DNA from: Streptococcus orisratti DSM 15617
Lineage (GTDB): Bacteria; Bacillota; Bacilli; Lactobacillales; Streptococcaceae
Direction of reading: 5' to 3'
Assembly: GCF_000380105.1 (NCBI RefSeq)
Contig: NZ_KB904482.1
Coordinates: 178-64,177 of the forward strand
Length of the DNA stretch: 64,000 bases
The translations under genes were made by a program, and so were the position numbers. A model generated the notes under the pieces. It saw nothing but the letters and a program-made list of their open reading frames with translations. It was not told the origin of the DNA and searched no databases. Below are positions 50,012-64,000 of the stretch, in pieces (positions within the stretch are counted from its first letter, which is position 1; each line of letters begins with the position of its first letter).

Positions 50012-50066
50012 AAATATCAGGTTAGACTATATTGTTGCTTAGAATAAGTTGTTTGAAAGGTATGGG

Positions 50067-51431
50067 ATGAAGAAGAAGGTTATTATAGCCGTGATATTAG
50101 TGTTAATTATGGTTTTTGCGACAATATTTTGTACTTATTTGTTTAAAGTTGCTTATTATCAAAGAAATTTTTCTTATTCGGAAAAAACTTTCGGTAATGC
50201 TTTGATAGGATATGCCCCCTCGGCATTGGAACAAACTGTTTCAGATGATATTAACCTTCTTTATGTGGATGTTACATGGAAAGAATTGGAACCAGAAAAA
50301 GGCTGTTATCAATGGGAAGATATAGAGAAGGAGAACCAATTTGATAGATGGCGAAGTGAGGGAAAACATATTGTTCTGCGCTTTATATTAGACTATCCTA
50401 GCACAGAAAAACATCTAGATATTCCTAACTGGTTGTATGAATCTTTAGAAGATCCAGGAGACTGGTACAACTCTTCCTCAGGAAAAGGATTTTCACCCAA
50501 TTATGCTAACTCCAAGTTACTTACCTATTATCAAAAAGCAATTGAAGCTATGGGAGATCGTTGGGGGCATGATAGTTTAATCAGTTATATTGAACTTGGA
50601 AGCCTTGGACATTGGGGGGAATGGCATGTTGAACAGGAAGCAGGTATTCGAGCGCTTCCTAAGAATACTGTTCGTGAGAAGTATGTTGAACCATGGTTAT
50701 CAGCATTTCCACAGGCTTCTATTTTGATGAGACGTCCCTTTACAACTGCCAAAAAACACCACTTAGGTCTCTATAATGATATGACTGGAAATGTAGAGAG
50801 CACAAATGAGTGGTTAGATTGGATAGAATCAGGAGGCGCTTATGATCAAACTGGGGAACAAGATTTAACTGCTATGCCGGATGGATGGAAGACTTCACCA
50901 ATAGGTGGGGAATTTACGAGTGCCAATTCAATGTGGGTACTTATGGGAAGAGATTTACAGCAAACTATAAGCCTTGTCAAAAAATCACATACAACTTTTT
51001 TAGGACCTAAAATTGCTGAAGATATTAATGATGAAAAATCGGGATATAACCAAATTTTAAACAATATGGGTTACCGTATTTGGATTTCTTCGGCAAAAAT
51101 GACGAAGTTTGGGAAAAAAACAAGATTAACCATGACTTGGAAAAACTCAGGAGTTGCTCCTTTTTACAAAGATTGGAAGGCCTATGTTTATGTCAAAAAC
51201 TGGGCAGGTATAATCGTAGAAAAAGTTGAAGTTCCGATTAATATCAAAAAAATACTTCCTAACGAGTCGGTAACAGTGTCGGTTTACCTAACCTCAAAAA
51301 ATGTGGCTGAAGCAACTAAAAACTATTATCAAATTTCGTTGGGAATTGTCGACCCAATGACTAAAAAAAACGCAGTGAATTTTGCTGTTAAAGGACAAGA
51401 AAATCAAAAAGAGCTAACTTTATTTGAGTGA
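50067..51431 (+). CDS. Membrane-anchored DUF4832-type putative glycoside hydrolase
   Basis: A 454-residue protein with one N-terminal transmembrane helix (4-27) and a large outside domain. It looks like a TIM-barrel hydrolase: LYVDVTWKELEPEKGCYQWEDI, then GKHIVLRFILDYP, SYIELGSLGHWGEWHVE with a candidate acid/base Glu, and QASILMRRPF. A DUF4832 beta-sandwich follows (about 345-454). It lies just before the pel operon but a very strong terminator separates the two. A role in trimming an exopolysaccharide is possible but unproved. Confidence 0.6.
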   Translation: MKKKVIIAVILVLIMVFATIFCTYLFKVAYYQRNFSYSEKTFGNALIGYAPSALEQTVSDDINLLYVDVTWKELEPEKGCYQWEDIEKENQFDRWRSEGKHIVLRFILDYPSTEKHLDIPNWLYESLEDPGDWYNSSSGKGFSPNYANSKLLTYYQKAIEAMGDRWGHDSLISYIELGSLGHWGEWHVEQEAGIRALPKNTVREKYVEPWLSAFPQASILMRRPFTTAKKHHLGLYNDMTGNVESTNEWLDWIESGGAYDQTGEQDLTAMPDGWKTSPIGGEFTSANSMWVLMGRDLQQTISLVKKSHTTFLGPKIAEDINDEKSGYNQILNNMGYRIWISSAKMTKFGKKTRLTMTWKNSGVAPFYKDWKAYVYVKNWAGIIVEKVEVPINIKKILPNESVTVSVYLTSKNVAEATKNYYQISLGIVDPMTKKNAVNFAVKGQENQKELTLFE

Positions 51432-51448
51432 TAATATTTACCTATTCT

Positions 51449-51503
51449 AAATAATAAGCATACCATATGGTGAAAAATTAGCATATGGTATGCTTATTAC
51501 TTT
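51449..51503 (+). terminator. Very strong terminator before the pel operon
   Basis: Perfect 17-bp arms AATAAGCATACCATATG (51453-51469) and CATATGGTATGCTTATT (51482-51498), followed by a T-rich stretch. Confidence 0.85.
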
Positions 51504-51575
51504 TTGTTTGAAAAAACAAAAAAATATCATTTCGATGTCGAAAGTTACAAAACAGATATTCCGAGAGTATTTATT

Positions 51576-51603
51576 TTGATAGATGACATTCCTTTGTTAC
51601 AAT
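51576..51603 (+). promoter_or_regulatory. Candidate pel operon promoter
   Basis: TTGATA (51576-51581), a 16-base spacer and TACAAT (51598-51603), about 60 bases before pelD. Only promoter seen between the terminator and pelD. Confidence 0.4.
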
Positions 51604-51668: not shown

Positions 51669-53717
51669 ATGACAGTTTTACTAGTAGGAGAAGTTAATAA
51701 TTTTTCAGCGGATAATCTAATTTCCTCTTTTCCTGATGAAAAGTTAATTGTTTTAGGAAAATTGGAAAAGTCGTCTAAAAAAATCAGAGAAATAGATATT
51801 AACACTTTTTCTAGCTTTGAGTGGTTATGTAAAACATATAATATCCGAGAAGTTGTATACTGCTCAGATACTCTCAATGAATTTAATCAGGGAGAGGATG
51901 AGATTAAGAAATTAAGAGTATTTTTAGAAGGTATCAAAAAAATACGCAGGATTAAGATGATTTATCTAACTGGTCCTGATGTTAATTTTAGAAATGAGAC
52001 GAGTCGGAGTATTGTGATGAAAAGCGCCGAGGAGTTATGCTATTTTTATGCTGAACAATGTCAGTTTTCTTTAAAGATTTTGCGCTCTTTGTACACTTAC
52101 AATATTTCCCAAACTACAAGTCGTTTGGGGCAGTTGATTGCCAAAGATCAATTTGGAGAAGAGATAGATTTTGTCTTAAACCCAGAACAATTAGCTTACT
52201 ATATCTATCCTAATGATCTGTTTAGTTTATGTTATCGCATCTTTGATAATTGGGATTATCAGTTTGAATGTCTCTCTGTTCCTGATGTCTTTCATATTAG
52301 GTACAGTGACATTCTTGAAAAATTAAATTTATCAAAACGGTCATTATTTTTTATAGAGTATCCTCTTTTTGAATTAGGTGATGTTAGCGCTAGTCAGTTA
52401 AAGGATCAGTATGGTTGGTTTCCTAAAGTATCAGTTTTAGATGAGTTGCAAAATAATGTTACTCCGAAAAGTAGGCGACAGACAGGGCGAAAAGAATATT
52501 TGTTGCATGTTTACCAGAAACTTGGTTTGCAGAAAAATTATGTAAAAATTGTAGAATTGATATTACTGTTTTTTATCAGTGAAGCGCTATCTCATATTTT
52601 AAGTCAGCAGGTTTATTTCAAAGTAGTTGATTTTCGTCTTTTCTTTATTTTAGTTATTGGGCTTAATTTTGGAATAGCCTATGGGTTGCTAGCAGCATTA
52701 TTAGCTAGCTCAGGTTTAGTTTTTCAAAATGTTAGTGCCGGAAATAATATTATGACGCTCTTCTTTGAGCCTTTGAATTGGATTTCTTATATAATTTACA
52801 TTGTCTCTGGTTTGGTGAGTGGCGCCGTAAAAGAAAACAAACTTGAAGAGCTAACTACTCTAAAATTAGATAATGCAAATCTAGAGGGACAGTTAAATGT
52901 TGAACGTCAATTTATTGAAGACTTACTAGTTGAAAAAACAGAATTGACTCATCAAATTTTGGGTAGAGACGATAGTTATGGAAAAATTTATCAATTTCTC
53001 AAGCAATTGGATGTACCTTATTTAGATGTTTTTACGATTAATTTGCTTCATTATTTGTCAGAAGTTTTTGGAACAGATGCAATTTTCGTCTATTCCGTTG
53101 AAAAGGGAGAACTAGGAAAACGTCAGCTAGGTATTGAAGTTAATACTGACTATTTTACAAAAGGTTCTCAACAATTTGATTTATTACAAGCACAGATAGC
53201 CGAAAATCAGATATGGGTAAATCATCGCTTGAAGGAGAATCTTCCCGCATACATGTCTTCCTTAACATATAAAGGCCATAATGAATTTTATATTATTATT
53301 CAGGAGGTTTCATTGGAAAAAATGAATCTTTACCATCAAAATTTATTTAAAGTTTTAACTAATTTGGCTAACATGTCCTATCAACGTATAAATTCCAAGC
53401 AGTCGTTTTTAGAGGGGGAGCATCTTATTCAAAAATTGGAAACGTTGAGAAGTTTAGGTGAGCATCGTTTTGCAGGAGAGGTACTTACCTTACATCTTAC
53501 GCGACCAGAGTCTTTGAATCATATACATTCAAAAATGACTATTTTTGATACCTTTGGTCAGGTTGGCGGAAAATTTTATCTCGTAATCAATACTCGCTAT
53601 GGTTTTTCAATTCAAGAATGGACGGAGTATTTGATGAAGAGTGATATTCAAATTCAAATGGCGGAAAGTATTGAAGATGCCATTGAAAATATCCAGTTTG
53701 ATCAGATGGTTTCATAA
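51669..53717 (+). CDS. pelD: PelD-like protein (SDR-like N-terminus, membrane segments, GAF, degenerate GGDEF)
   Basis: A 682-residue protein. The N-terminal 280 residues resemble an epimerase/SDR fold that has lost its glycine-rich nucleotide motif. Four hydrophobic helices (about 297-400) are followed by a coiled coil (400-435), a GAF domain (about 440-570) and a degenerate GGDEF-like domain (about 575-682). This is the PelD layout that scaffolds the Pel synthase. No R-x-x-D c-di-GMP site is visible in the last domain. GGAG precedes the ATG. First gene of the operon. Confidence 0.75.
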   Translation: MTVLLVGEVNNFSADNLISSFPDEKLIVLGKLEKSSKKIREIDINTFSSFEWLCKTYNIREVVYCSDTLNEFNQGEDEIKKLRVFLEGIKKIRRIKMIYLTGPDVNFRNETSRSIVMKSAEELCYFYAEQCQFSLKILRSLYTYNISQTTSRLGQLIAKDQFGEEIDFVLNPEQLAYYIYPNDLFSLCYRIFDNWDYQFECLSVPDVFHIRYSDILEKLNLSKRSLFFIEYPLFELGDVSASQLKDQYGWFPKVSVLDELQNNVTPKSRRQTGRKEYLLHVYQKLGLQKNYVKIVELILLFFISEALSHILSQQVYFKVVDFRLFFILVIGLNFGIAYGLLAALLASSGLVFQNVSAGNNIMTLFFEPLNWISYIIYIVSGLVSGAVKENKLEELTTLKLDNANLEGQLNVERQFIEDLLVEKTELTHQILGRDDSYGKIYQFLKQLDVPYLDVFTINLLHYLSEVFGTDAIFVYSVEKGELGKRQLGIEVNTDYFTKGSQQFDLLQAQIAENQIWVNHRLKENLPAYMSSLTYKGHNEFYIIIQEVSLEKMNLYHQNLFKVLTNLANMSYQRINSKQSFLEGEHLIQKLETLRSLGEHRFAGEVLTLHLTRPESLNHIHSKMTIFDTFGQVGGKFYLVINTRYGFSIQEWTEYLMKSDIQIQMAESIEDAIENIQFDQMVS

Positions 53718-53729
53718 GAAAGGAAAAAT

Positions 53730-54629
53730 GTGTTAATTATTTTGTTTTTTGCTCTCCACTTTGTTGTTGTCATTTATTTTTTACTTGCCGAGAAAAATAA
53801 TAAAGTGAATCTGGACGTTTACCTAAGGTTTCTGTTGCTCTTTCTTCCTTTTGTAGGAGCAATTGCGGTTTATAATATCGATAAAGATAGAAAAGGAAAA
53901 GCAGGTCATTCTCGTCTAAGCTTTAAAGATGCTATCCCTTGGATGGCAGAGGATGAATTTGAAGATGATGAGGTGACACAATTCAATAATATTTCAAAAA
54001 TTAACAATATTGTTCCTTTTCAAGAAGCACTGATTTTAAACAATGCAGGAATTAAGCGTGAACTTATTATTGATGTCATTTTTGAATACCCTGATCAGTT
54101 TGTACCATTGCTTCATCAAGCTCGTCTTAATGAAGATGTAGAGGTTGTTCATTATGCTACAACGATCTTATCGGAACTTGTTGCAAAATATGATAGTCAA
54201 CTTCATGCATTAGAAGAGAAAATAATGGATAATCCAAATAACACGGAATTACAAATGGAGTACATTTCTTTCTTGAAAAGATATATAGAAAGTGAAATTG
54301 CAGAGGGGTTTTATGGTAGCACCTTAAAGAAACACTACATAGGACACCTTCAAAGGCTATTAAATCAAGGCATTGTTCCGGAAAAAGAGTTTTGTTTGGA
54401 ACTTGCCAAAATTCATCTTGAAAATAAAGATGAGCGAGTTCTTAGTCAGTTGTTAAATTTACTTTTTCAATTGTTTCCTAATGATGAAGATATCTGGATG
54501 TTGAAATTAGAAGTAATTGTTTCAAAAAAATCTAGTCAGGAATTAGAAGACTTTTTAACAGAAATAAAGAATAAAAGTGTATACTTCTCAGCTAAAAATC
54601 GGGAAGTACTTGCTTTTTTCCAACAGTAA
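53730..54629 (+). CDS. pelE: PelE-like membrane/TPR protein
   Basis: A 299-residue protein with two N-terminal transmembrane helices (2-20 and 28-45), then a helical region of TPR-like repeats (about 90-290), as in PelE. It would join PelD and PelG in the inner-membrane complex. The start is GTG at 53730 after AAAGGA; the ATG two bases earlier is out of frame. Confidence 0.7.
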   Translation: MLIILFFALHFVVVIYFLLAEKNNKVNLDVYLRFLLLFLPFVGAIAVYNIDKDRKGKAGHSRLSFKDAIPWMAEDEFEDDEVTQFNNISKINNIVPFQEALILNNAGIKRELIIDVIFEYPDQFVPLLHQARLNEDVEVVHYATTILSELVAKYDSQLHALEEKIMDNPNNTELQMEYISFLKRYIESEIAEGFYGSTLKKHYIGHLQRLLNQGIVPEKEFCLELAKIHLENKDERVLSQLLNLLFQLFPNDEDIWMLKLEVIVSKKSSQELEDFLTEIKNKSVYFSAKNREVLAFFQQ

Positions 54630-54635
54630 GGAATT

Positions 54636-56458
54636 ATGATAAAAAAAAGAAAATATAAGTTTACAAGTTTGCTGTTTGCTTTTGGAATTCTTGTGGTATT
54701 AGCTATTGGTCTGTTTATTGAGCGTAATGGCATAAATTACACTAGCAAACAATCTTCTTATTATTTGAATGTCTCGCAGGTAAAGACAAAATCGGAGGCA
54801 CTTTCAGCTATACCAGTTAACAATTTAGTAATTTTTAATTCTAGTAACGAAACTTCTGCCAGTGCTATTAATAATTTTAAGCAGATTTTTGAAGATATGA
54901 AAGTTAGTACGGCCTATGTTGATGTTGCTACAGAAGCGATCCCAGATTTTACGAGCTACAAATCAGTAGTTGTTTTGACTCCCGATATTGAGCCACTTGG
55001 GGTAAAGGCAATTGAGCTAATGGACTGGGTTGAAGCCGGTGGTAATGTCATGTTTGCCATGACAATCCAAAAGATAATATGAGTTCAATTATTGAACATA
55101 AGTTAGGAGTTGTCACCTCTGCCTATGAGTATGCCTTAGTAAATAAGGTTCATATCAAAGATGGCTTTATGCTCGGTGGCGGAAAAGATTATAAGATTGA
55201 TGAAGCTTTTGAATCTGCTTGGGGAGTTGAATTAGATAGTTCAGCTCATGTTCACATGACTACTGCTGATGACAATAAAACTCCGCTTATTTGGGATTAT
55301 CAATTAGGAAGTGGTCGAGTTGTTGTTGACAATTTTGGTATTTATGTCAAAGCAATGCGTGGTTTTTATTCAGCTTCTTATTCACTTTTAGATGATGTAG
55401 GAGTTTATCCAGTAATCAACTCAGCAGCTTTTACATTGGATGATTTCCCATCGCCAGTTCCTAACGGTGATGGGAAATATATTAAACATGATTATCATAT
55501 GAATATTTCAGAATTCTATACTAATGTTTGGTGGCCAAATATGATTAGTTTATCTGAAAAATATGGTATTAAATACACCGGTGTCGTTATTGAAAATTAT
55601 GAGAATGATACCTCTGGTAAGATAAAACGTCAATCTGATTCATCACGTTTTACTTATTTTGGGAACATGCTTTTGCAAATGGGTGGGGAAATTGGCTATC
55701 ATGGATATAACCACCAACCATTTAGTTTGTCTAATGTTGATTATGGTGATGCTTTTGAGTATCATACATGGCCAAATACTAAGGCAATTGGTAATTCTCT
55801 GAATGAACTAATTCGATTTACAAATAGTTTATTTCCAACAGAAGAAAAATCTGTCTATGTTCCACCGTCAAATATTTTATCAGTAGAAGCGCGTGATTTT
55901 ATTGTTAAAAAGTACCCCCAAATTAAGGTTATCGCAAGTAGCTATTTTTCAAAAACATTTGAATATGAACAAGAATTTGCTGTTGCAAACGATGGGATGA
56001 TTGAGGAACCACGTATTAGTTCTGGGACTATCATTGATGACTACATCAAATTAACCATGGTTTCTGAGTTAAACATGCACTATGTCAGCCACCATTTTGT
56101 TCATCCAGATGATCCACTTGATGTTGATCGCGGTGCTAAATTGGGTTGGGATAGGATGTTTGAAAACCTTTCTAAGCAAATGGACTGGCTTTATAAGGCA
56201 GCTCCCAACATTCGGAATCAAACTGAATCGCAGATGGGTGGTGCTATTCAACGTTTTTCTAGTATTACTGTTACAAAAGAAGTTACAGATGCAGCATTTA
56301 CATTTAAACTAGGTAATTTTGTTGATGAGGCTTATCTCATGGTTCGTATCAATAAAGGGGAAATAGGGAAAGTGAGTGGAGGAGAGTTAGAACATTTAAC
56401 GGGAAATCTTTATCTCCTTCACGCCACCAACAATACCGTGACTATTCAAAGAAAATAG
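54636..56458 (+). pseudogene. pelA: PelA-type deacetylase (DUF2194) split by a one-base frameshift
   Basis: Two adjoining frames form one protein of about 607 residues. Frame 1 (54636-55082, 148 codons) carries the membrane anchor (FTSLLFAFGILVVLAIGLF) and a GATase-like start. Frame 2 (55079-56458, 459 codons) carries the CE4-like deacetylase (TLDDFPSP, GGEIGYHGYNHQP, YVPPSN, HFVHPDDP). The break lies at the four-A run 55069-55072: adding one A reads QKDNMSSII and restores the whole frame. The stop of frame 1 and the ATG of frame 2 overlap as ATGA, so a separate soluble deacetylase part might still be made. Could also be a sequencing error. Confidence 0.75.
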
Positions 56459-56497
56459 AAATTCTGTAACTTTAAGGAATTTTAGAAAGGAAAAATC

Positions 56498-57901
56498 GTG
56501 AGGATTTGCTTAATCTTAGAAGGATGTTACCCTTACGTTAATGGTGGGGTATCTTCTTGGATGCACAATTATATTAATGAGATGACAGAACATGAGTTTG
56601 TTCTAGTTACCATTGGTGCTAATGCTAAAAGTAAAGGGAAGTTTAAATATCAACTAGCTGACAATGTGGTGGAAATTAAAGAAATTTTTCTTGATGATGC
56701 TTTTTCTTTAACTACAAAAAAAGATAAGCTAACGTGTGATTTTACGTCAGAAGAACGTCAGGCCTTAAAACATTTGATTGCCTGTAAAAATCCCAATTGG
56801 GAAATACTTTTCAATATTTTTAACGCTCATCATCTATCACCAATTGATTTTTTAGAAAGTCCGATTTTTTTAGAACTTCTGATAGAAGTTATGGAAAAAG
56901 AACATAGTAATCAGGCTTTTTCAGATGTGTTTCATTCAACCCGATCGATGCTTTTACCTGTTTTGTATTTGATGGGAACTGAAATGCCTAAGGCAGATAT
57001 TTATCATTCCATTGCAACAGGCTATGCAGGGTTGATTGCTAGTTTAGGAAGCTTCCAGCACCATGCTCCTCTCCTATTGACAGAACATGGTATTTATACG
57101 CGTGAACGTGAGGAAGAGATTCTTCGGTCAGATTGGGTTTTGCCAAGCATGAAGCGACAGTGGATTCGATTTTTCTATATGTTGTCAAACTTAATCTATT
57201 CTCGTGCTAATCGTGTGACTAGCCTCTATACAAAAGCGAAATTTATCCAAGAGGAAGTAGGGTGTGATATTGAGAAATGTCAAGTGATTTCGAATGGTAT
57301 TCACTACGAACGTTTTTCAAAAATTCCTTTAAAGGAAGAAGATGGCTGGGTTGATATTGGGGCAATTGTCCGAATTGCACCTATTAAGGATATTAAGACG
57401 ATGATTTATGTTTTTTACGAATTATCTCAGCGTTATCCTAAAACACGATTACATATTTTAGGCGGTGTTGATGATAAGGACTACAATAAAGAGTGCCATC
57501 AACTTGTGAAACAATTAGGACTTAACAATGTTATTTTTACGGGTCAAGTTGATATCGTGCGGTATATGGAAAAATTAGATTTCACGATTTTAACTAGTAT
57601 TTCAGAAGCACAACCTCTATCTGTCATTGAATCAATGGCTGCTAAACGTCCTTGTGTAACCACTGATGTTGGATGTTGTCGTGAACTACTTGAAGGAGGA
57701 CCGGGGGATAAGTTTGGAATAGCTGGTTATTGCATTCCACCAACTTATCGATTAGGATTAACGCACGCTATGGAAAAAATGTGCAGTTCTCGTCAACTAA
57801 GGGAGAAAATGGGGCTAATTGCTCAAAAGCGTGCCCAAACTTACTACCTTTATGAGACCATGATTCAGCAGTATCGAGACTTATATGAGGAGGTGATATA
57901 G
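56498..57901 (+). CDS. pelF: PelF glycosyltransferase (GT4)
   Basis: A 467-residue GT-B enzyme, the cytoplasmic polymerase of Pel. MRICLILEGCYPYVNGGVSSWMHN at the N-terminus is the family hallmark. The C-terminal half has IGAIVRIAPIKDIKTMIYVF and the nucleotide-sugar motif SISEAQPLSVIESMA (E-x7-E). Start GTG after GAAAGGA. Ends one base before pelG. Confidence 0.9.
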   Translation: MRICLILEGCYPYVNGGVSSWMHNYINEMTEHEFVLVTIGANAKSKGKFKYQLADNVVEIKEIFLDDAFSLTTKKDKLTCDFTSEERQALKHLIACKNPNWEILFNIFNAHHLSPIDFLESPIFLELLIEVMEKEHSNQAFSDVFHSTRSMLLPVLYLMGTEMPKADIYHSIATGYAGLIASLGSFQHHAPLLLTEHGIYTREREEEILRSDWVLPSMKRQWIRFFYMLSNLIYSRANRVTSLYTKAKFIQEEVGCDIEKCQVISNGIHYERFSKIPLKEEDGWVDIGAIVRIAPIKDIKTMIYVFYELSQRYPKTRLHILGGVDDKDYNKECHQLVKQLGLNNVIFTGQVDIVRYMEKLDFTILTSISEAQPLSVIESMAAKRPCVTTDVGCCRELLEGGPGDKFGIAGYCIPPTYRLGLTHAMEKMCSSRQLREKMGLIAQKRAQTYYLYETMIQQYRDLYEEVI

Positions 57902-59374
57902 ATGGCAGGTATTGGGTTTTCAATCAATAAGCTTGTTAAGGAAAAAAATTTTTCTTCTAAGCCTAGGGCTTTTGCTTATGCAGCTATCGTAACAATAGGC
58001 CCACTTTTATTTGGCGAACTCGTTTTAGTGGCTGTTTATGCTTTAACTAATTTCTCAAAAGTGATAGTCGCGGATAGAAATTTAATTGTGGCCATTATTA
58101 CTTATGGCTTATTAGCATCGTTAATCATCAATGGCGCTTCGTCATTAGTAATTTCCAGATACCTATCTGATAAGCTTTATGCTAAAAAAATTGGAGATAT
58201 TTTGACTACTTACTGGGGAAGCCAACTTTTCTTGCTTACGGTAGGTGGACTCATTTATGGAATTTTTATTATTTTTTCAGGGATAGGGATTTTTTATAGC
58301 GTTTTGGCTTGGCTTTTGTTTTGTGAATTGTTGCTTTCGTGGAATGCTTTGAATTTTTTAACTATTTTGCGAGATTATCAGGGGCTTTTTAAATCTTTTA
58401 GTTTGACTATTGTTACTACATGTGCAATGGGAGGGATTTTCTTTTTGATTGGGATGGCCCCAGTTGCGGCCTCTATTGGAGGAATGATTATGGGTTACGC
58501 CAGTTTCTTTATTCAAACAACTCAGTTATTATATAGACAGTTTTCGGGACGTATTCATTTTAAACGCTTGTTCTCGTTTCTTGACTATTTTGATGAATTT
58601 TGGAAGTTGTCTGTTATTGGTTTGTCGACTCAGCTAGGCTTGTTGGGACATGTCATTTTGATTTGGTTTAGCCCTATTGGACAAAAAGTGAAGGGGTTAT
58701 TCTATATTGCACCTTATTACGATTTGACTATTTTCTTAGCATCGTTAAGTATGTTAGCAACAATAATTAGTTTTACTATTTTTTTAGAAGTTGATTTTTT
58801 CAAGATTTATCGAAAGTATTACCAAAGTCTTGATAAGGGTGCTACTCTAAATCAAATTAAGAAAATAGAAACTGATATGATAGACTGCTTAAAAAATGGT
58901 TTAAGAAAGGCCTCTTGGATACAAACCATTGTGACTTTATTATCAATTTCAGTTGGTACAGCTATTTTGAATAATCTTCCCTTAGGTTTCAACAGTACAA
59001 TGGGTGGTTATTTCAGGATACTTTGTGTAGCTTATGCCATCTATGGTATTGCTAATATCTTATCCTTGTCGTCTATGTATTTCGGAAATGTAGAGGGAAG
59101 TTTTCAGTCAGGAATAGTCTTTGTTCTGATTACCTTATTGATGACCGTTGCTGTTATGTTTATCAATGACCTATTTTATGGTTTTGGTTTTTTAATTGGA
59201 TCTGCAGTTTATTTTATCTTAGTGTGGTGGCAGTTAGAAAAAACTACGAGTAATGTGCTCTATCAAATTTTAGGAAAGCAGCCAATTATTCAACAGACAC
59301 ATCAAGGATTTTTTTATCGCCTATCAAAAACGTTGAATAAAAAAGTAAGAATTTTGGTAAGGAGAGGTTCATGA
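57902..59374 (+). CDS. pelG: PelG membrane transporter
   Basis: A 490-residue MATE/MVF-like polytopic protein with 12 or so hydrophobic segments, opening MAGIGFSINKLVKEKNF as PelG proteins do. It exports the polymer across the membrane with PelD and PelE. GAGGAGGTGAT sits at the end of pelF, and the ATG directly follows the pelF stop. The last codons (RRGS) lie in a 35-bp tandem duplication. Confidence 0.88.
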   Translation: MAGIGFSINKLVKEKNFSSKPRAFAYAAIVTIGPLLFGELVLVAVYALTNFSKVIVADRNLIVAIITYGLLASLIINGASSLVISRYLSDKLYAKKIGDILTTYWGSQLFLLTVGGLIYGIFIIFSGIGIFYSVLAWLLFCELLLSWNALNFLTILRDYQGLFKSFSLTIVTTCAMGGIFFLIGMAPVAASIGGMIMGYASFFIQTTQLLYRQFSGRIHFKRLFSFLDYFDEFWKLSVIGLSTQLGLLGHVILIWFSPIGQKVKGLFYIAPYYDLTIFLASLSMLATIISFTIFLEVDFFKIYRKYYQSLDKGATLNQIKKIETDMIDCLKNGLRKASWIQTIVTLLSISVGTAILNNLPLGFNSTMGGYFRILCVAYAIYGIANILSLSSMYFGNVEGSFQSGIVFVLITLLMTVAVMFINDLFYGFGFLIGSAVYFILVWWQLEKTTSNVLYQILGKQPIIQQTHQGFFYRLSKTLNKKVRILVRRGS

Positions 59375-59426
59375 AAAAGAATAGAAATTTGGTAAGGAGA
59401 GGTTCATGAAAAAGAATAGAAATTTG
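59353..59426 (+). repeat. 35-bp tandem duplication at the pelG-cotH junction
   Basis: 39 bases at 59353-59391 match 59388-59426 exactly (period 35). Each copy holds AAGGAGAGGTTCATGAAAAA, the ribosome site and ATG of the CotH gene. The period is not a multiple of three. Confidence 0.95.
59371..59409 (+). CDS. 12-residue ORF created by the duplication
   Basis: ATG (overlapping the pelG stop as ATGA) to TGA encodes MKKNRNLVRRGS: the CotH start fused to the PelG end. Its TGA overlaps the true CotH ATG at 59406, again as ATGA. It has a full ribosome site. Probably an accidental relay ORF rather than a functional peptide. Confidence 0.5.
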   Translation: MKKNRNLVRRGS

Positions 59427-61178
59427 TTAGTGGTTGTTTTCCTTTTCTTAACCGCAGCAGCCCTAGTCTGTTTGGTTGGAGTTCTTACAGTGAAAGATAA
59501 GGAAGATTCTAGTCTTAAAATAAAAAAAGAAAAAATAAGCTACTCTAAGAAAAATTATCATTTAGCAGACAATGAGGCTCTGTATGAAACTCAAGATAAT
59601 AAAAGTGTTGAAACGATGTACTTGACTGTCAGACGTGGCAGTGATTCAGAAAATACTAATCATTCTTGGTCAGAAATTAATGGTCTCTCAGTCTATGACT
59701 ATGAAAAAATGGGGGTTAATCGTTATAAAATTTTAGGCCTACTCCAAGTTGGAAATGAAAATGGACCACAATCAGGAAAATTAGGCTATGGTGAGGTCGT
59801 GCCAAATGCTACTGTCCAAGTTCGGGGACAGACCTCAAGTAGAAATTCACAAAAGAATTTCAAAATTGAGATAAAAGATGGTAAGGGATCTTGGTATGGT
59901 CAAAAAACAATCAACCTTAATAAACATCAAACAGAAAGTCTCCGTTTTCGTAATAAACTATCCTATGCTTTGTTGGAAAAAATTCCTCAAGTTTTAAGTT
60001 TGCGAACTCAATTTGTTCATCTCTATGTTAAAGACACTACAGGCGATAAACCAAATGAATTTGTCGACTATGGTTTATATACACAAGTTGAGCAACTAAA
60101 CAAAGCAGGGATGAGGGCTCACAATTTAGATAGCAGTGGGCAACTTTATAAAGTTAACTTTTTTGAGTTTATGGATGAGAACAATGTTATTAAATTAACA
60201 AGTGATCCTGATTATGACAAAGAAAAATTCGAAGAAATGCTTGAAATAAAAGGATCAAGTGATCACAGCAAATTGATTAAGTTAATCAAAAAAGTTAATG
60301 ACAGTTCCAGCAGTTTTTACGGTATTTTGGAAAAATATTTTGATATAGATAATTTATCTTATTGGATGGCGTTTCAAATTTTAATGGGGAATCATGATAC
60401 TCAGAATCGAAATATGTATCTATACAGCCCTCTAAATTCTCAGCGCTGGTACATTATTCCTTGGGATAATGATGCATCACTTTTTGAAACGGAGTATGAA
60501 ATAAAAGGTTTTACTGGAAGTTCCGATTGGGAGTCGGGTATTAGTAATTATTGGGGTAATGTCCTTTTTAGACGGGCATTGAAAACAAAGGAATTCCGCA
60601 AGGCTCTTGACAATGCTATTGAAGATTTACGGAAAAATTACCTTACAGATAATCGTATCACGGAACTATCAAATGAGTTAGCCGCCACAGTGGAACCCTA
60701 CATTACTGAAACCCCTGATTCTACTTATTTAGGAGTTTCTATGGCAAATCATGAAAAAATACTAAAAGCCTTACCTTCAGAAGTTGAAAGTAATTATCAA
60801 AAATATTTTGAAAGCTATCAAAAACCAATGCCGTTCTTTATTGCAACACCAGAAAAAACCTCTGATAAATTAAAATTAAGTTGGGAGAGTGCTTATGATT
60901 TTAACTCTGAAGACATTACCTACACGGTTGAGGTTTCAAAAAATTATGATTTTTCAGATACCATTTTAAAACAGGAAAATCTTAAATTGACTAGTATTAA
61001 TATGGATATGCTAGAAGAAGGACAGTACTTCATCCGAGTTAAGGCAACAAATACTTCAGGTAAATCTCAATACGCTTTTGATTACTACGTAGCAGATAAT
61101 TTAGGTAAAGTCAGTGGTATTAAATCTTTTTATGTTAATTCGGATAAAACAGTTAGTGAGGACAAATATGAAGAATAA
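59406..61178 (+). CDS. CotH-type protein kinase-like protein, membrane-anchored
   Basis: A 590-residue protein with one transmembrane helix (6-27) and an outside CotH kinase domain (about 65-430). MGNHDTQNRNMYLY holds the catalytic-loop Asp and Asn, and YIIPWDNDASLF the metal-binding Asp, as in spore-coat CotH. VRGQTSSRNSQKNFKIEIK is a typical N-lobe strand. A fibronectin-like domain follows (about 475-560). It would phosphorylate an extracytoplasmic protein or glycan. Overlaps the VTC gene by 11 bases. Confidence 0.82.
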   Translation: MKKNRNLLVVVFLFLTAAALVCLVGVLTVKDKEDSSLKIKKEKISYSKKNYHLADNEALYETQDNKSVETMYLTVRRGSDSENTNHSWSEINGLSVYDYEKMGVNRYKILGLLQVGNENGPQSGKLGYGEVVPNATVQVRGQTSSRNSQKNFKIEIKDGKGSWYGQKTINLNKHQTESLRFRNKLSYALLEKIPQVLSLRTQFVHLYVKDTTGDKPNEFVDYGLYTQVEQLNKAGMRAHNLDSSGQLYKVNFFEFMDENNVIKLTSDPDYDKEKFEEMLEIKGSSDHSKLIKLIKKVNDSSSSFYGILEKYFDIDNLSYWMAFQILMGNHDTQNRNMYLYSPLNSQRWYIIPWDNDASLFETEYEIKGFTGSSDWESGISNYWGNVLFRRALKTKEFRKALDNAIEDLRKNYLTDNRITELSNELAATVEPYITETPDSTYLGVSMANHEKILKALPSEVESNYQKYFESYQKPMPFFIATPEKTSDKLKLSWESAYDFNSEDITYTVEVSKNYDFSDTILKQENLKLTSINMDMLEEGQYFIRVKATNTSGKSQYAFDYYVADNLGKVSGIKSFYVNSDKTVSEDKYEE

Positions 61179-61896
61179 CAAAGAGGTTTATAGACATGAA
61201 CAAAAATACTTGATTTCTAAAAAGGATCAATATCTCATACGTCAACGTTTACGGGAGTTGATGATTTTGGATAAGCATGTTAGGGAAAATAGCTATACCA
61301 TTCGGAGTCTGTATTTTGATGATTATTGGAATAGTGCTTATGAAGATAAGCAAGCGGGGGTGCTTAAACGGAAAAAATACCGTATTAGAATATATAATTT
61401 CTCAGCAGATATCATTAAACTTGAAAGAAAACGGAAGCATGGAGCATATATTTACAAGGAGGATGCTCCTCTAACTCAAGAAGAATTTTATAAGATTTTG
61501 GATGGTGACTACACTTTCTTGCTGCACAGTCCTTACCAACTTTGTCAAGAATTTTATGTAGAATGTATCGCAAACGCTATGAAACCAAGGACAATTGTTG
61601 ACTATGAACGAGAACCTTGGACCTTGAATGCAGGAACGGTTCGAGTCACTTTTGATGAAAATGTGCGGGCAGCGATAGGGAGCTTTGATATTTTTGATGC
61701 TAATCTTCCTGCATTAGAAGTTTTAGAGCCAGATAAACTTGTCATGGAAGTTAAATATACGGAATTTTACCCAGAAATTATCAAGGAAATTATTCCATCG
61801 GACGCTATGGAATACACAGCAGTTTCCAAATATGTCCTTTGCTACGATAAAAGTAATTACAATCGCAGTTTTAATGATTATTGGTATGATCATTAG
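61168..61896 (+). CDS. VTC-domain (polyphosphate polymerase-like) protein
   Basis: A 242-residue cytoplasmic protein with the VTC tunnel fold: YRHEQKYLISK at the start, RSLYFDD, RKKYRIRIYNF and KLERKRKHGAYIYKE giving the basic tunnel lining, then EVKYTEF and AVSKYVLCYD. Yeast VTC4 makes polyphosphate from ATP; bacterial members with CotH and DUF4956 neighbours are uncharacterised. Start 61168 chosen for GTGAGG upstream and the family N-terminus. Confidence 0.82.
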   Translation: MKNNKEVYRHEQKYLISKKDQYLIRQRLRELMILDKHVRENSYTIRSLYFDDYWNSAYEDKQAGVLKRKKYRIRIYNFSADIIKLERKRKHGAYIYKEDAPLTQEEFYKILDGDYTFLLHSPYQLCQEFYVECIANAMKPRTIVDYEREPWTLNAGTVRVTFDENVRAAIGSFDIFDANLPALEVLEPDKLVMEVKYTEFYPEIIKEIIPSDAMEYTAVSKYVLCYDKSNYNRSFNDYWYDH

Positions 61897-61928
61897 TCCT
61901 ATTAGATAATAAAGAAAAGAGAATAATA

Positions 61929-62594
61929 ATGAGTATTCAAGATGTTTTGAAAAAGTCGTTTGTCAGTTCGTTTTCGGGGGAAGATCTTCAGAAAGTTCTT
62001 TTGTCCCTCTTAATCTCAATTATCATGGGAGCTATCATTTACTTGATTTATAGACAGTTTTACACAGGAGTTGTCTTCTCACGCAGCTTTGCCATTACTC
62101 TGGTTGGCATGACTGTTTTGACTTGTATGGTGACTTTAGCCATTAGCTCAAATATTGTTATTTCACTTGGTATGGTTGGAGCCTTGTCTATTGTACGTTA
62201 TCGGACAGCTATCAAAGATCCAATGGATTTACTCTATATCTTTTGGGCGATAACTACCGGAATTACTATTGGTGCGGGAATGTACCTTCTGGCTTTAATT
62301 GCTGCTGTTGTCATGGTTGGACTTTTTATTGTTTTTTACCATTATCAGCAAACAGGAAAAGTTTATATTGCTGTCATTCATTATAAAAATACTGATATAG
62401 AAGAAAAGGTACTGCAAGCATTTGGGAAGATGAAATATTTTTTGAAAGCCAAAACAGTCCGTAAAGGTTTAGTAGAGCTATCTGTGGAAATATTCTGCAA
62501 GGATGAAAACCTTGCCTTCTCAGAGAAAATTCAAGCCATTGAAGGAGTGGAAGATATTACTCTTATCCAATATAATGGTGAATATCATGGCTAA
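61929..62594 (+). CDS. DUF4956 membrane protein
   Basis: A 221-residue protein with four hydrophobic helices (about 20-135), containing the family motif GMVGALSIVRYRTAIKDPMDLLYIFW, then a small C-terminal alpha/beta domain. It nearly always accompanies VTC-domain genes and is a candidate channel or partner for the VTC enzyme. Function unproved. Confidence 0.8.
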   Translation: MSIQDVLKKSFVSSFSGEDLQKVLLSLLISIIMGAIIYLIYRQFYTGVVFSRSFAITLVGMTVLTCMVTLAISSNIVISLGMVGALSIVRYRTAIKDPMDLLYIFWAITTGITIGAGMYLLALIAAVVMVGLFIVFYHYQQTGKVYIAVIHYKNTDIEEKVLQAFGKMKYFLKAKTVRKGLVELSVEIFCKDENLAFSEKIQAIEGVEDITLIQYNGEYHG

Positions 62595-62629
62595 GGAAAC
62601 AAATTATAACGAAAGTGAGGAGTAATCTT

Positions 62630-63640
62630 ATGTCAATCTTATTAACAGGCGGGGCCGGTTACATAGGCAGTCATACTGCTGTTGAATTAATTACAGCAGG
62701 TTTTGAAGTTATCATTGTTGATGATTTTTCAAATAGTTCCCCAGAAGTTTTAAATCGTTTGAAAACTATAACAGGGCAAAATATTCCTTTCTACGAGGGA
62801 ACTATTCTTGATAAGACCTTTTTAAATAATATTTTTTATGAAAATGATATTGAAGCAGTTATTCATTTTGCGGCTTTTAAGGCGGTTGGAGAGTCTGTTG
62901 AGCAACCTTTAAAGTATTATAAAAATAACATTACTGGTACGATTACCCTTCTTGAAGTCATGAATGCACATAAGGTGAAAAACATTGTTTTTAGCTCAAG
63001 TGCAACGGTTTATGGAATAAATAATATTTCACCACTGACAGAAGAACTACCAACTTCGGCTACAAATCCATATGGCTATACCAAGGTTATGATGGAACAA
63101 ATTCTCATAGATGTGGCAAAAGCTGATCCAGAGTGGTCTGTTACCCTGCTGCGTTATTTTAACCCGATTGGTGCTCATGAAAGTGGACTAATTGGCGAAG
63201 CGCCAAATGGTGTTCCTAACAATCTCGTCCCCTATATTACACAAGTTGCAGTTGGAAAACTTAAAGAGTTAAGTATTTTTGGAGATGATTATAATACGTT
63301 AGATGGTACAGGGGTTCGGGATTACATCCATATTGTTGATCTTGCTAAAGGTCACGTTTTAGCTCTTAAACAGAATCTTGGTGCACAAGGTAGTGATATT
63401 TTCAATCTTGGTACAGGTAAAGGGTACAGTGTTTTAGAGCTTGTGAAAGCTTTTGAAGCGGAAAATCATGTTGCGATTCCTTATGTGATAAAACCACGAC
63501 GTGCGGGAGACATTGCAACCTGTTACGCAGATGCTTCAAAGGCCAACAAAAAATTAGGCTGGAAAGCCCAAAAGACTCTTCAAGATATGATGAGAGATTC
63601 TTGGAGATGGCAAAGCCAAAATCCAAATGGTTACCAGTAG
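62630..63640 (+). CDS. galE: UDP-glucose/UDP-GlcNAc 4-epimerase
   Basis: A 336-residue SDR epimerase. GGAGYIGSH (NAD site), SSSATVYG, then YGYTKVMMEQ with the catalytic Tyr and Lys, and RYFNPIGAHESG. In a Pel operon it would make UDP-GalNAc from UDP-GlcNAc, the sugar Pel requires. Dual specificity is inferred from context. Start 62630 chosen because AGGAG lies upstream. Last gene of the operon. Confidence 0.9.
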   Translation: MSILLTGGAGYIGSHTAVELITAGFEVIIVDDFSNSSPEVLNRLKTITGQNIPFYEGTILDKTFLNNIFYENDIEAVIHFAAFKAVGESVEQPLKYYKNNITGTITLLEVMNAHKVKNIVFSSSATVYGINNISPLTEELPTSATNPYGYTKVMMEQILIDVAKADPEWSVTLLRYFNPIGAHESGLIGEAPNGVPNNLVPYITQVAVGKLKELSIFGDDYNTLDGTGVRDYIHIVDLAKGHVLALKQNLGAQGSDIFNLGTGKGYSVLELVKAFEAENHVAIPYVIKPRRAGDIATCYADASKANKKLGWKAQKTLQDMMRDSWRWQSQNPNGYQ

Positions 63641-64000
63641 TAAATTATTGGCTACTTCACTATCTGGGGTGCCTTAGCAATCTATAATTGATACCATAGT
63701 CATTCAGCTTATCTTTTATTACTTCAACGAATGGGAATTCTGTTTCCATATTTTCAACCTTCGGCAATCACTACAATGACTGTTTGACATGAATTTTGTT
63801 TTACTATCCTACTCCACTAGTCTTTTTGCGGATTGGTGGAGTCGGTACTAAAAGCAAATTGAAAGACTATAAAACTTGCTTCATCATTAAACGAGTTTGG
63901 AATAGGCCTAGTTCCAAACTCATTTTAAGTTTAACGGACATGATATAAGATTTATGCGTTCAAATCTTAGTTTAGAACTAATACTCAAAGAAAATCAAAT
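63641..64000. other. Non-coding tail after galE with a hairpin and a truncated repeat
   Basis: 360 bases with no supported gene. A perfect hairpin GAGTTTGGAA (63893-63902) / TTCCAAACTC (63912-63921) is followed by a weak T run and may terminate the pel operon, although it is 250 bases away. ATACTCAAAGAAAATCAAAT at the very end is the start of another repeat cut by the window. Confidence 0.55.

Follow-up and report, generated by a model that had tools for sequence, protein, structure and literature searches.

Pel exopolysaccharide operons of the Gram-positive pelDEADAFG type are the closest described relatives of the locus treated here. In 2020, a cotH gene, a polyphosphate polymerase gene, a DUF4956 gene and a DUF4832 gene were reported to adjoin pel in both streptococci and clostridia, with the DUF4832 gene placed upstream in the variant of S. 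gallolyticus (PMC7112168). In 2025, these four extra genes were deleted one by one in Streptococcus intermedius (PMC12345266). According to the available text of that study, aggregation in 10 % artificial sputum dropped to under half its level when CotH (SIR_1594) or DUF4956 (SIR_1592) was lost, and the Pel signal went down without CotH and up without DUF4956; for the deletion of the VTC gene (SIR_1593), the same text reports an effect on neither aggregation nor Pel signal. It further suggests that S. intermedius Pel consists predominantly of N-acetylgalactosamine (GalNAc), describes a PelD that lacks GGDEF and is unable to bind cyclic diguanosine monophosphate (c-di-GMP), and states that its own analyses did not find the three genes so arranged beyond the Pel locus.

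Here, we examine a stretch of 64,000 nucleotides (the window) from Streptococcus orisratti DSM 15617 (contig NZ_KB904482.1, positions 178 to 64,177), which carries the run pelD-pelE-DUF2194-pelF-pelG-CotH-VTC-DUF4956-galE on its + strand at 51669-63640. This order had been proposed from the letters alone (the sequence-only reading) and was confirmed by Pfam, NCBIfam and position. The operon is the published arrangement in a published lineage: its genes are those of the operons in PMC7112168, and its CotH, VTC and DUF4956 genes form the same trio as in the S. intermedius pel locus (SIR_1591-1594, PMC12345266), the deletions of which also render outdated the earlier statement that no activity of the trio had been characterised in this setting. 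New here are a constant pairing of VTC with DUF4956, a wide occurrence of the trio outside Pel, and a fusion of PelG with CotH. Taken together, these observations favour a phosphate-handling module with an outward-facing kinase stationed at the Pel exporter.

The VTC-DUF4956 pair

Pairing was counted in a sample of 398 genomes of one phylum, where DUF4956 occurred in 64 genomes (75 loci) and VTC in 64 as well, the same ones when both lists were compared by eye; the same three of 14 control genomes were positive for both. VTC directly adjoined DUF4956 at 73 of the 75 loci (at least one of these copies, G386:C1, L063, is a fragment), lay two genes off at one, and was missing at one, where the contig ends. 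A few VTC copies stood without a DUF4956 neighbour (G383:C36, a partial copy on G270:C23 and one in two pieces on G308:C2). We take DUF4956 as the probable membrane partner of a prokaryotic VTC polyphosphate polymerase.

The VTC profile found its best matches in Vtc4 structures (3g3q, 2e-21), and 19 of its columns are invariant in 49/49 sequences. Among these invariant positions, R72, R74 and E194 of the window protein align in HMMER with R264, R266 and E426 of Vtc4, the residues mutated to inactivate yeast VTC, in which synthesis is coupled to passage through a channel lined by basic residues (PMC9911596). For DUF4956, a profile search against Protein Data Bank (PDB) sequences returned no Vtc match, just an ACT domain at E 0.4, and fold searches gave no Vtc1 among the matches listed, which covered the ACT-like part only (residues 142-220). 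The AlphaFold2 (AF2) model of this protein (predicted local distance difference test, pLDDT, 84.8) comprises six helices, the first of them short, followed by the ACT-like domain; four membrane segments were counted in a relative (PMC12345266). R90 (conserved in 59/60) and R92 (60/60) sit at and just past the end of the modelled helix 76-90, a region that might form the entry of a polyphosphate path.

A different assignment, in the direction taken in PMC12345266, would make DUF4956 a MgtC-like regulator of phosphate or magnesium homeostasis without any polyphosphate path. It can draw on the ACT-like C-terminal domain, on ranks 9 and 15 of the Foldseek list, which are C-terminal structures of MgtC (no other MgtC part is among the matches listed), and on a weak match to Pfam MgtC (0.0068, 17.2 bits). 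However, this score falls below the cut-off of 31.4 bits, and a role in general homeostasis gives no reason for the VTC that accompanies DUF4956 in 64/64 genomes; we regard this assignment as quite unlikely.

Of the 75 DUF4956 loci, 41 have CotH and 25 a Cthe_2159-like carbohydrate-binding protein no more than three genes away; one has both and 10 have neither. The identity of these neighbours was checked by Pfam for three of the CotH and two of the Cthe_2159 proteins. Some loci, such as L046:11307-13213, have a divergent two-component system next to the pair, its histidine kinase and response regulator being recognised by Pfam. A merged cluster of neighbours extends over 33 of the 75 loci, and on the strand opposite to the pair 18 of its members occupy position -2 and 18 position -3.

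Within the window's genus, DUF4956 is present in 70 of 118 genomes, and the chief polyphosphate polymerase may be VTC, since PPK1 was detected in just two of the 118 and is absent from the window's own genome (PPK2 was not searched for). This genome harbours a second VTC-DUF4956 pair on another contig (L032:7472-10343), divergent from a Cthe_2159 protein and with no CotH adjacent.

The trio inside and outside pel loci

The notion that the trio occurs only with pel had to be rejected, as PelG is missing from 38 of the 41 CotH-VTC-DUF4956 loci in the phylum sample, and at least 3 kb are visible to either side in 30 of these 38. A second, named set consists of the 80 top-ranking stretches among 554 confirmed ones and is hence an uneven draw, in which some trio loci stop at a contig edge; there, the trio was present in 57, with PelG in the locus in 5 and absent in 52 (31 with both sides seen). 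Even in the window's genus, one genome without a PelG match carries VTC-DUF4956-CotH (L198, G418), and another such genome has CotH two genes past VTC-DUF4956 (L195, G487). The published confinement of the arrangement to Pel does not hold in this wider set of genomes.

Conversely, PelG exceeded its cut-off in 13 of the 398 genomes, which became 12 after the weak thirteenth (G281) was dropped; further weak matches left out were G040, G352, G391 and G336. The trio stands alongside pel at three of these 12 strong loci, compared with about 0.016 pairs expected from a rough density that assumes a mean genome of 2.9 Mb, and the linkage is accordingly above chance. In the window's genus, seven of 118 genomes contain PelG, and in six of the seven the trio follows 3′ of pelG; the seventh (G507) has no trio behind pelG and no pelA. 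All six carry at least one further DUF4956 locus. Nor is the association peculiar to this lineage with a promoter and a terminator between pel and trio, as the sequence-only reading had allowed for: it recurs in Bacillaceae, Paenibacillaceae and Clostridia, and in the window pel and trio are not separated by any strong terminator. In the tree, 20 pel rows group together with five others (support 41/17; L076, with a PelF-like glycosyltransferase only, is not counted as pel). A clade made up solely of pel rows is rejected (approximately unbiased test, p-AU 1.9e-7), and a single recruitment to pel is too strong a conclusion. Two further observations concern pel loci as such: in L166-L169, which lack the trio, a gene of unassigned kind encoding 714-1194 amino acids (aa) lies directly 3′ of pelG, and in L177 PelD is divided into two frames, SDR-like and membrane/GAF-like.

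The trio could also be a passenger: a common module concerned with phosphate that once inserted 3′ of pelG and shares its transcript fortuitously. This reading, already disfavoured, would fit the 38 of 41 trio loci outside pel and the nine of 12 pel loci without a trio, but it is at odds with the linkage at three of 12 loci against 0.016 expected, with the mutant phenotypes described in PMC12345266, and with the Paenibacillus loci presented below, where the pair follows in 23/23 full loci and PelG and CotH are fused. We consider it very improbable.

Three Paenibacillus pel loci (L226, L227, L282) at first seemed to be without CotH, which proved wrong: their PelG frames of 1035-1088 aa consist of PelG at the N-terminus and CotH at the C-terminus, as judged by our own profiles and by Pfam. 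In the family of G105 (Paenibacillus), PelG exceeds its cut-off in 45 of 295 genomes, of which the forty-fifth (G779) was left out as weak, as were G542, G665, G543 and G790. Among 29 short PelG loci of this family, CotH is fused in 24 and separate downstream in five. Among 23 full loci, the two are fused in 18 and separate in five, with VTC and DUF4956 next in all 23; 20 of these 23 come from genomes also represented among the short loci. A set of 20 loci taken for their best scores is a biased draw. Including G105 itself, 33 genomes were read (24 fused, nine with a separate CotH), and the 11 of 44 strong-PelG genomes that were not read have frames of 1034-1172 aa (four) or 475-524 aa (seven). 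The named and the G105-family fusion sets overlap (G520 L323 corresponds to P. abyssi L227) and were not summed. Some genes are broken: both L332 and L335 have DUF4956 in two pieces, and L335 has a broken PelG and CotH as well. In L072 and L328, a single pel operon contains CotH twice, either as two genes or as a fusion plus another CotH.

All 18 full fusions retain the D..PWD kinase motif, and in all 18 an internal lipobox (permissive pattern), preceded by a hydrophobic stretch (by eye), lies between the PelG and CotH parts. Since an apparent lipoprotein signal (by eye) is often seen at the N-terminus of the separate pel CotH proteins, PelG-CotH may be a chain that is cut by signal peptidase II. 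A precedent for a cleaved fusion precursor is the cytochrome b/c1 of Bradyrhizobium. In nine of the 18, a start in frame, together with a weak Shine-Dalgarno-like stretch, lies somewhere in the linker, and separate initiation of CotH is possible there. In the open-licence PubMed Central (PMC) literature, neither a prokaryotic VTC-DUF4956 complex nor a PelG-CotH fusion was found among the matches listed, and the words "Paenibacillus" and "fusion" are absent from the main text of PMC7112168 and PMC12345266.

The CotH of the window has the fold of a described kinase. Its AF2 model (pLDDT 89), which begins with a hydrophobic helix at residues 5-28, superposes on B. cereus CotH (5jd9) with Z 35.1 and a root-mean-square deviation of 2.7 over 342 aligned residues; the next matches are lipid kinases, HipA-like and Fam20 secretory kinases with Z of at most 13. 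Besides the CotH domain and fold, D331 and D354 are present in 35/35 aligned sequences, and an equivalent of the active-site aspartate D228 of B. subtilis is inferred among them. The C-terminal fn3 domain was matched by Pfam at 1.4e-4, slightly below its cut-off.

Such a protein could instead be a protein kinase acting on Pel proteins in a c-di-GMP-independent control, with VTC-DUF4956 tuning the phosphate supply, an idea on kinase regulation that comes from PMC7112168. The S. intermedius PelD, which lacks GGDEF and c-di-GMP binding, and the lower Pel signal without CotH (both PMC12345266) agree with this explanation, and a PelG-CotH fusion would set the kinase next to its target. Yet the N-terminal hydrophobic helix of the model should place CotH outside, away from the cytosolic parts of PelD and PelF, and 38 of the 41 trio loci have no pel to be regulated. 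It appears rather unlikely to us.

In Pseudomonas aeruginosa, DNA binds cationic Pel, and exported polyphosphate might conceivably do likewise as an anionic matrix component that binds partly deacetylated, cationic Pel, with CotH as a separate regulator. The 25 of 75 loci at which VTC-DUF4956 goes with Cthe_2159 carbohydrate-binding proteins, as if its product were variously used outside, would suit this explanation. However, the suggested GalNAc-rich Pel of S. intermedius would be near neutral, and its VTC mutant is without a reported loss of aggregation in the available text (both PMC12345266). In addition, every pair-bearing pel locus that was read also has CotH, fused or separate, which speaks for a joint role; a matrix function with an independent CotH is unlikely in our view, if worth bearing in mind.

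Organization of the window operon

The features of the operon and its surroundings are as follows.

50049..51431, + strand: DUF4832 glycoside-hydrolase-like gene, relative of SIR_1591 (Pfam DUF4832 1.9e-21)
51452..51509, + strand: strong terminator-like hairpin with T-run in the interval between the DUF4832 gene and pelD (stem 51452-51499, -26.6 kcal/mol)
51576..51603, + strand: promoter-like site TTGATA-16-TACAAT with TG ahead of the second hexamer (10/12 consensus matches)
51669..53717, + strand: pelD with an N-terminal SDR-like part, membrane helices and a GAF-like part (position, window-seeded profiles)
53730..54629, + strand: pelE (position, window-seeded profile)
54636..55082, + strand: pelA_DA (DUF2194), part 1 of a split frame (Pfam 6.3e-16, profile 1-123/582)
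55079..56458, + strand: pelA_DA (DUF2194), part 2 of the split frame (Pfam 2.8e-138, profile 130-582)
56498..57901, + strand: pelF glycosyltransferase, DUF3492 and GT (Pfam DUF3492 4.2e-77)
57902..59374, + strand: pelG exporter (Pfam PelG 1.2e-102)
59356..59426, + strand: 35-base tandem duplication at the pelG/cotH junction (sequence)
59406..61178, + strand: CotH kinase-like gene with N-terminal hydrophobic helix and C-terminal fn3 (Pfam CotH 1.8e-73)
61168..61896, + strand: VTC polyphosphate-polymerase domain protein, 242 aa (Pfam VTC 5.1e-35)
61929..62594, + strand: DUF4956 membrane protein, helices followed by an ACT-like domain (Pfam 2.8e-11)
62630..63640, + strand: galE, uridine diphosphate (UDP)-glucose 4-epimerase type (NCBIfam TIGR01179 1.1e-135)
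63893..63921, + strand: terminator-like hairpin 3′ of galE (terminator scan, -14.6 kcal/mol)

The adjoining pelF (DUF3492) and pelG, with a gap of 0 bases, mark the locus as a Gram-positive pel operon. PelD and PelE had no Pfam match at E 0.01, and NCBIfam gave nothing either; they agree with other pel loci in position and in window-seeded profiles, which are not independent of the window proteins, and the SDR and GAF labels of PelD are taken from PMC7112168 and PMC12345266. The VTC start was revised to about 61168, within the 3′ end of cotH, and galE probably starts at 62630.

From pelD to galE, the intergenic gaps range from -11 to 39 bases. The terminator scan of this run gave two weak + strand sites only, within pelF and pelG, but it missed the strong hairpin 5′ of pelD, and for this reason all junctions were folded separately; the best T-tailed hairpin inside the run reached -11.6 kcal/mol versus -26.6 upstream of pelD. 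Because the gaps are small and no convincing terminator lies inside, the trio very probably shares the pel transcript. The DUF4832 gene is separated from pelD by the strong hairpin and the promoter-like site at 51576, the latter being a consensus match only in a region where such sites are not more frequent than in shuffles. Its position corresponds to the S. gallolyticus variant among the operons of PMC7112168; in S. intermedius, by contrast, SIR_1591 is numbered beside the trio (PMC12345266).

Two features set the window apart from the operons in PMC7112168, at least as these are described there: a pelA in two frames and the 35-base duplication 5′ of cotH. An intact gene for a PelA deacetylase-like protein (DUF2194) was not found, the domain being distributed over 54636-55082 and 55079-56458, whereas 14 relatives keep it as a single frame of 587-632 aa, a length near that of the summed halves. 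The split is either a lesion or a sequencing error in this draft of 90 contigs. Given the single frame in the relatives, the strain may be without normal Pel production, unless the split is indeed a sequencing error. The tandem duplication (59356-59426) is perfect; it doubles the ribosome site and start, and a mini-frame of 12 codons precedes cotH.

A possible phosphate module at the Pel exporter

We favour, with a probability of roughly 40 %, a phosphate module in which CotH is an outward-facing kinase where Pel exits, while polyphosphate is both synthesised and exported by VTC-DUF4956. A Gram-positive Pel operon would thereby carry a self-standing CotH-VTC-DUF4956 module: VTC would polymerise phosphate from adenosine triphosphate (ATP) in the cytosol, and DUF4956 would serve in the membrane as its dedicated partner and probable polyphosphate exit path. 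CotH, presumably membrane-anchored and facing outward, would act at the outer mouth of PelG, its most likely job in pel operons being to phosphorylate Pel or an exit-site protein while the chain emerges; exported polyphosphate might then be its phosphate source where ATP is absent. Active-site residues, VTC-DUF4956 pairing, recurrent pel linkage and the PelG-CotH fusion of relatives are all read from sequence, and from them we infer polyphosphate synthesis and export as well as the activity, orientation, donor and substrate of CotH. The phosphate or polyphosphate role that the sequence-only reading gave to the trio thus stands as the best guess, because the VTC tunnel residues (49 sequences) and CotH aspartates (35) are invariant and CotH is fused to PelG in many Paenibacillus, while its suggestions of phosphate on Pel or a fixing of Pel to the wall are proposals only. 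The scarcity of PPK1 in the window's genus and the lowered aggregation of the S. intermedius mutants without CotH or DUF4956 (PMC12345266) also count in favour of the phosphate module.

Several observations weigh against this phosphate module. The VTC deletion in S. intermedius was silent as far as reported, and the losses of CotH and DUF4956 shift the Pel signal in opposite directions (both PMC12345266), which a simple linear pathway from VTC via DUF4956 and CotH to Pel does not predict. A second pair could mask the loss of VTC but should equally mask that of DUF4956. Moreover, the fold matches of DUF4956 are confined to its ACT-like part, and its pairing with VTC was counted within one phylum. 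Finally, in nine of the 12 pel genomes from the phylum sample, the pel locus is free of the trio; since eight of these nine lack any DUF4956 match genome-wide (in the ninth, G136, the trio lies on a different contig), Pel does not need the trio.

A more specific form of the phosphate module, in which a two-gene VTC-DUF4956 complex threads polyphosphate out as an ATP-free donor and exporter-bound CotH uses it to phosphorylate emerging Pel, is unlikely as a whole; the Paenibacillus PelG-CotH could here be one chain with an internal lipobox open to signal peptidase II. The source of ATP for CotH phosphorylation in spores was named as an unanswered question (PMC7821199), and the constant VTC-DUF4956 pair beside CotH offers one directly testable answer as to how an extracellular bacterial kinase may be supplied with phosphate free of ATP. 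If true, this would define what DUF4956, a domain of unknown function, does, provide a polyphosphate polymerase for a genus in which 116 of 118 genomes show no PPK1, and give Pel, a polymer of biofilms and virulence, a chemical handle. With the fusion of PelG and CotH, in turn, a hint from gene neighbourhood becomes a physical link.

Compared with known systems, the window pair shares the tunnel domain and catalytic residues with the eukaryotic VTC complex (Vtc1/Vtc3/Vtc4; 7YTJ, 8I6V), and in both the membrane partner is a separate protein, of the Vtc1 type in eukaryotes and probably DUF4956 in the window. The SPX domain of eukaryotic VTC is not found in the window protein, whose 242 aa hold VTC as the sole Pfam domain. 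Likewise, the window CotH resembles the spore-coat kinase CotH (5jd9, 5jda) in fold and active-site aspartates but adds an N-terminal hydrophobic helix and fn3, and in a host genus without spores it stands beside a polysaccharide exporter, to which it is sometimes fused in Paenibacillus.

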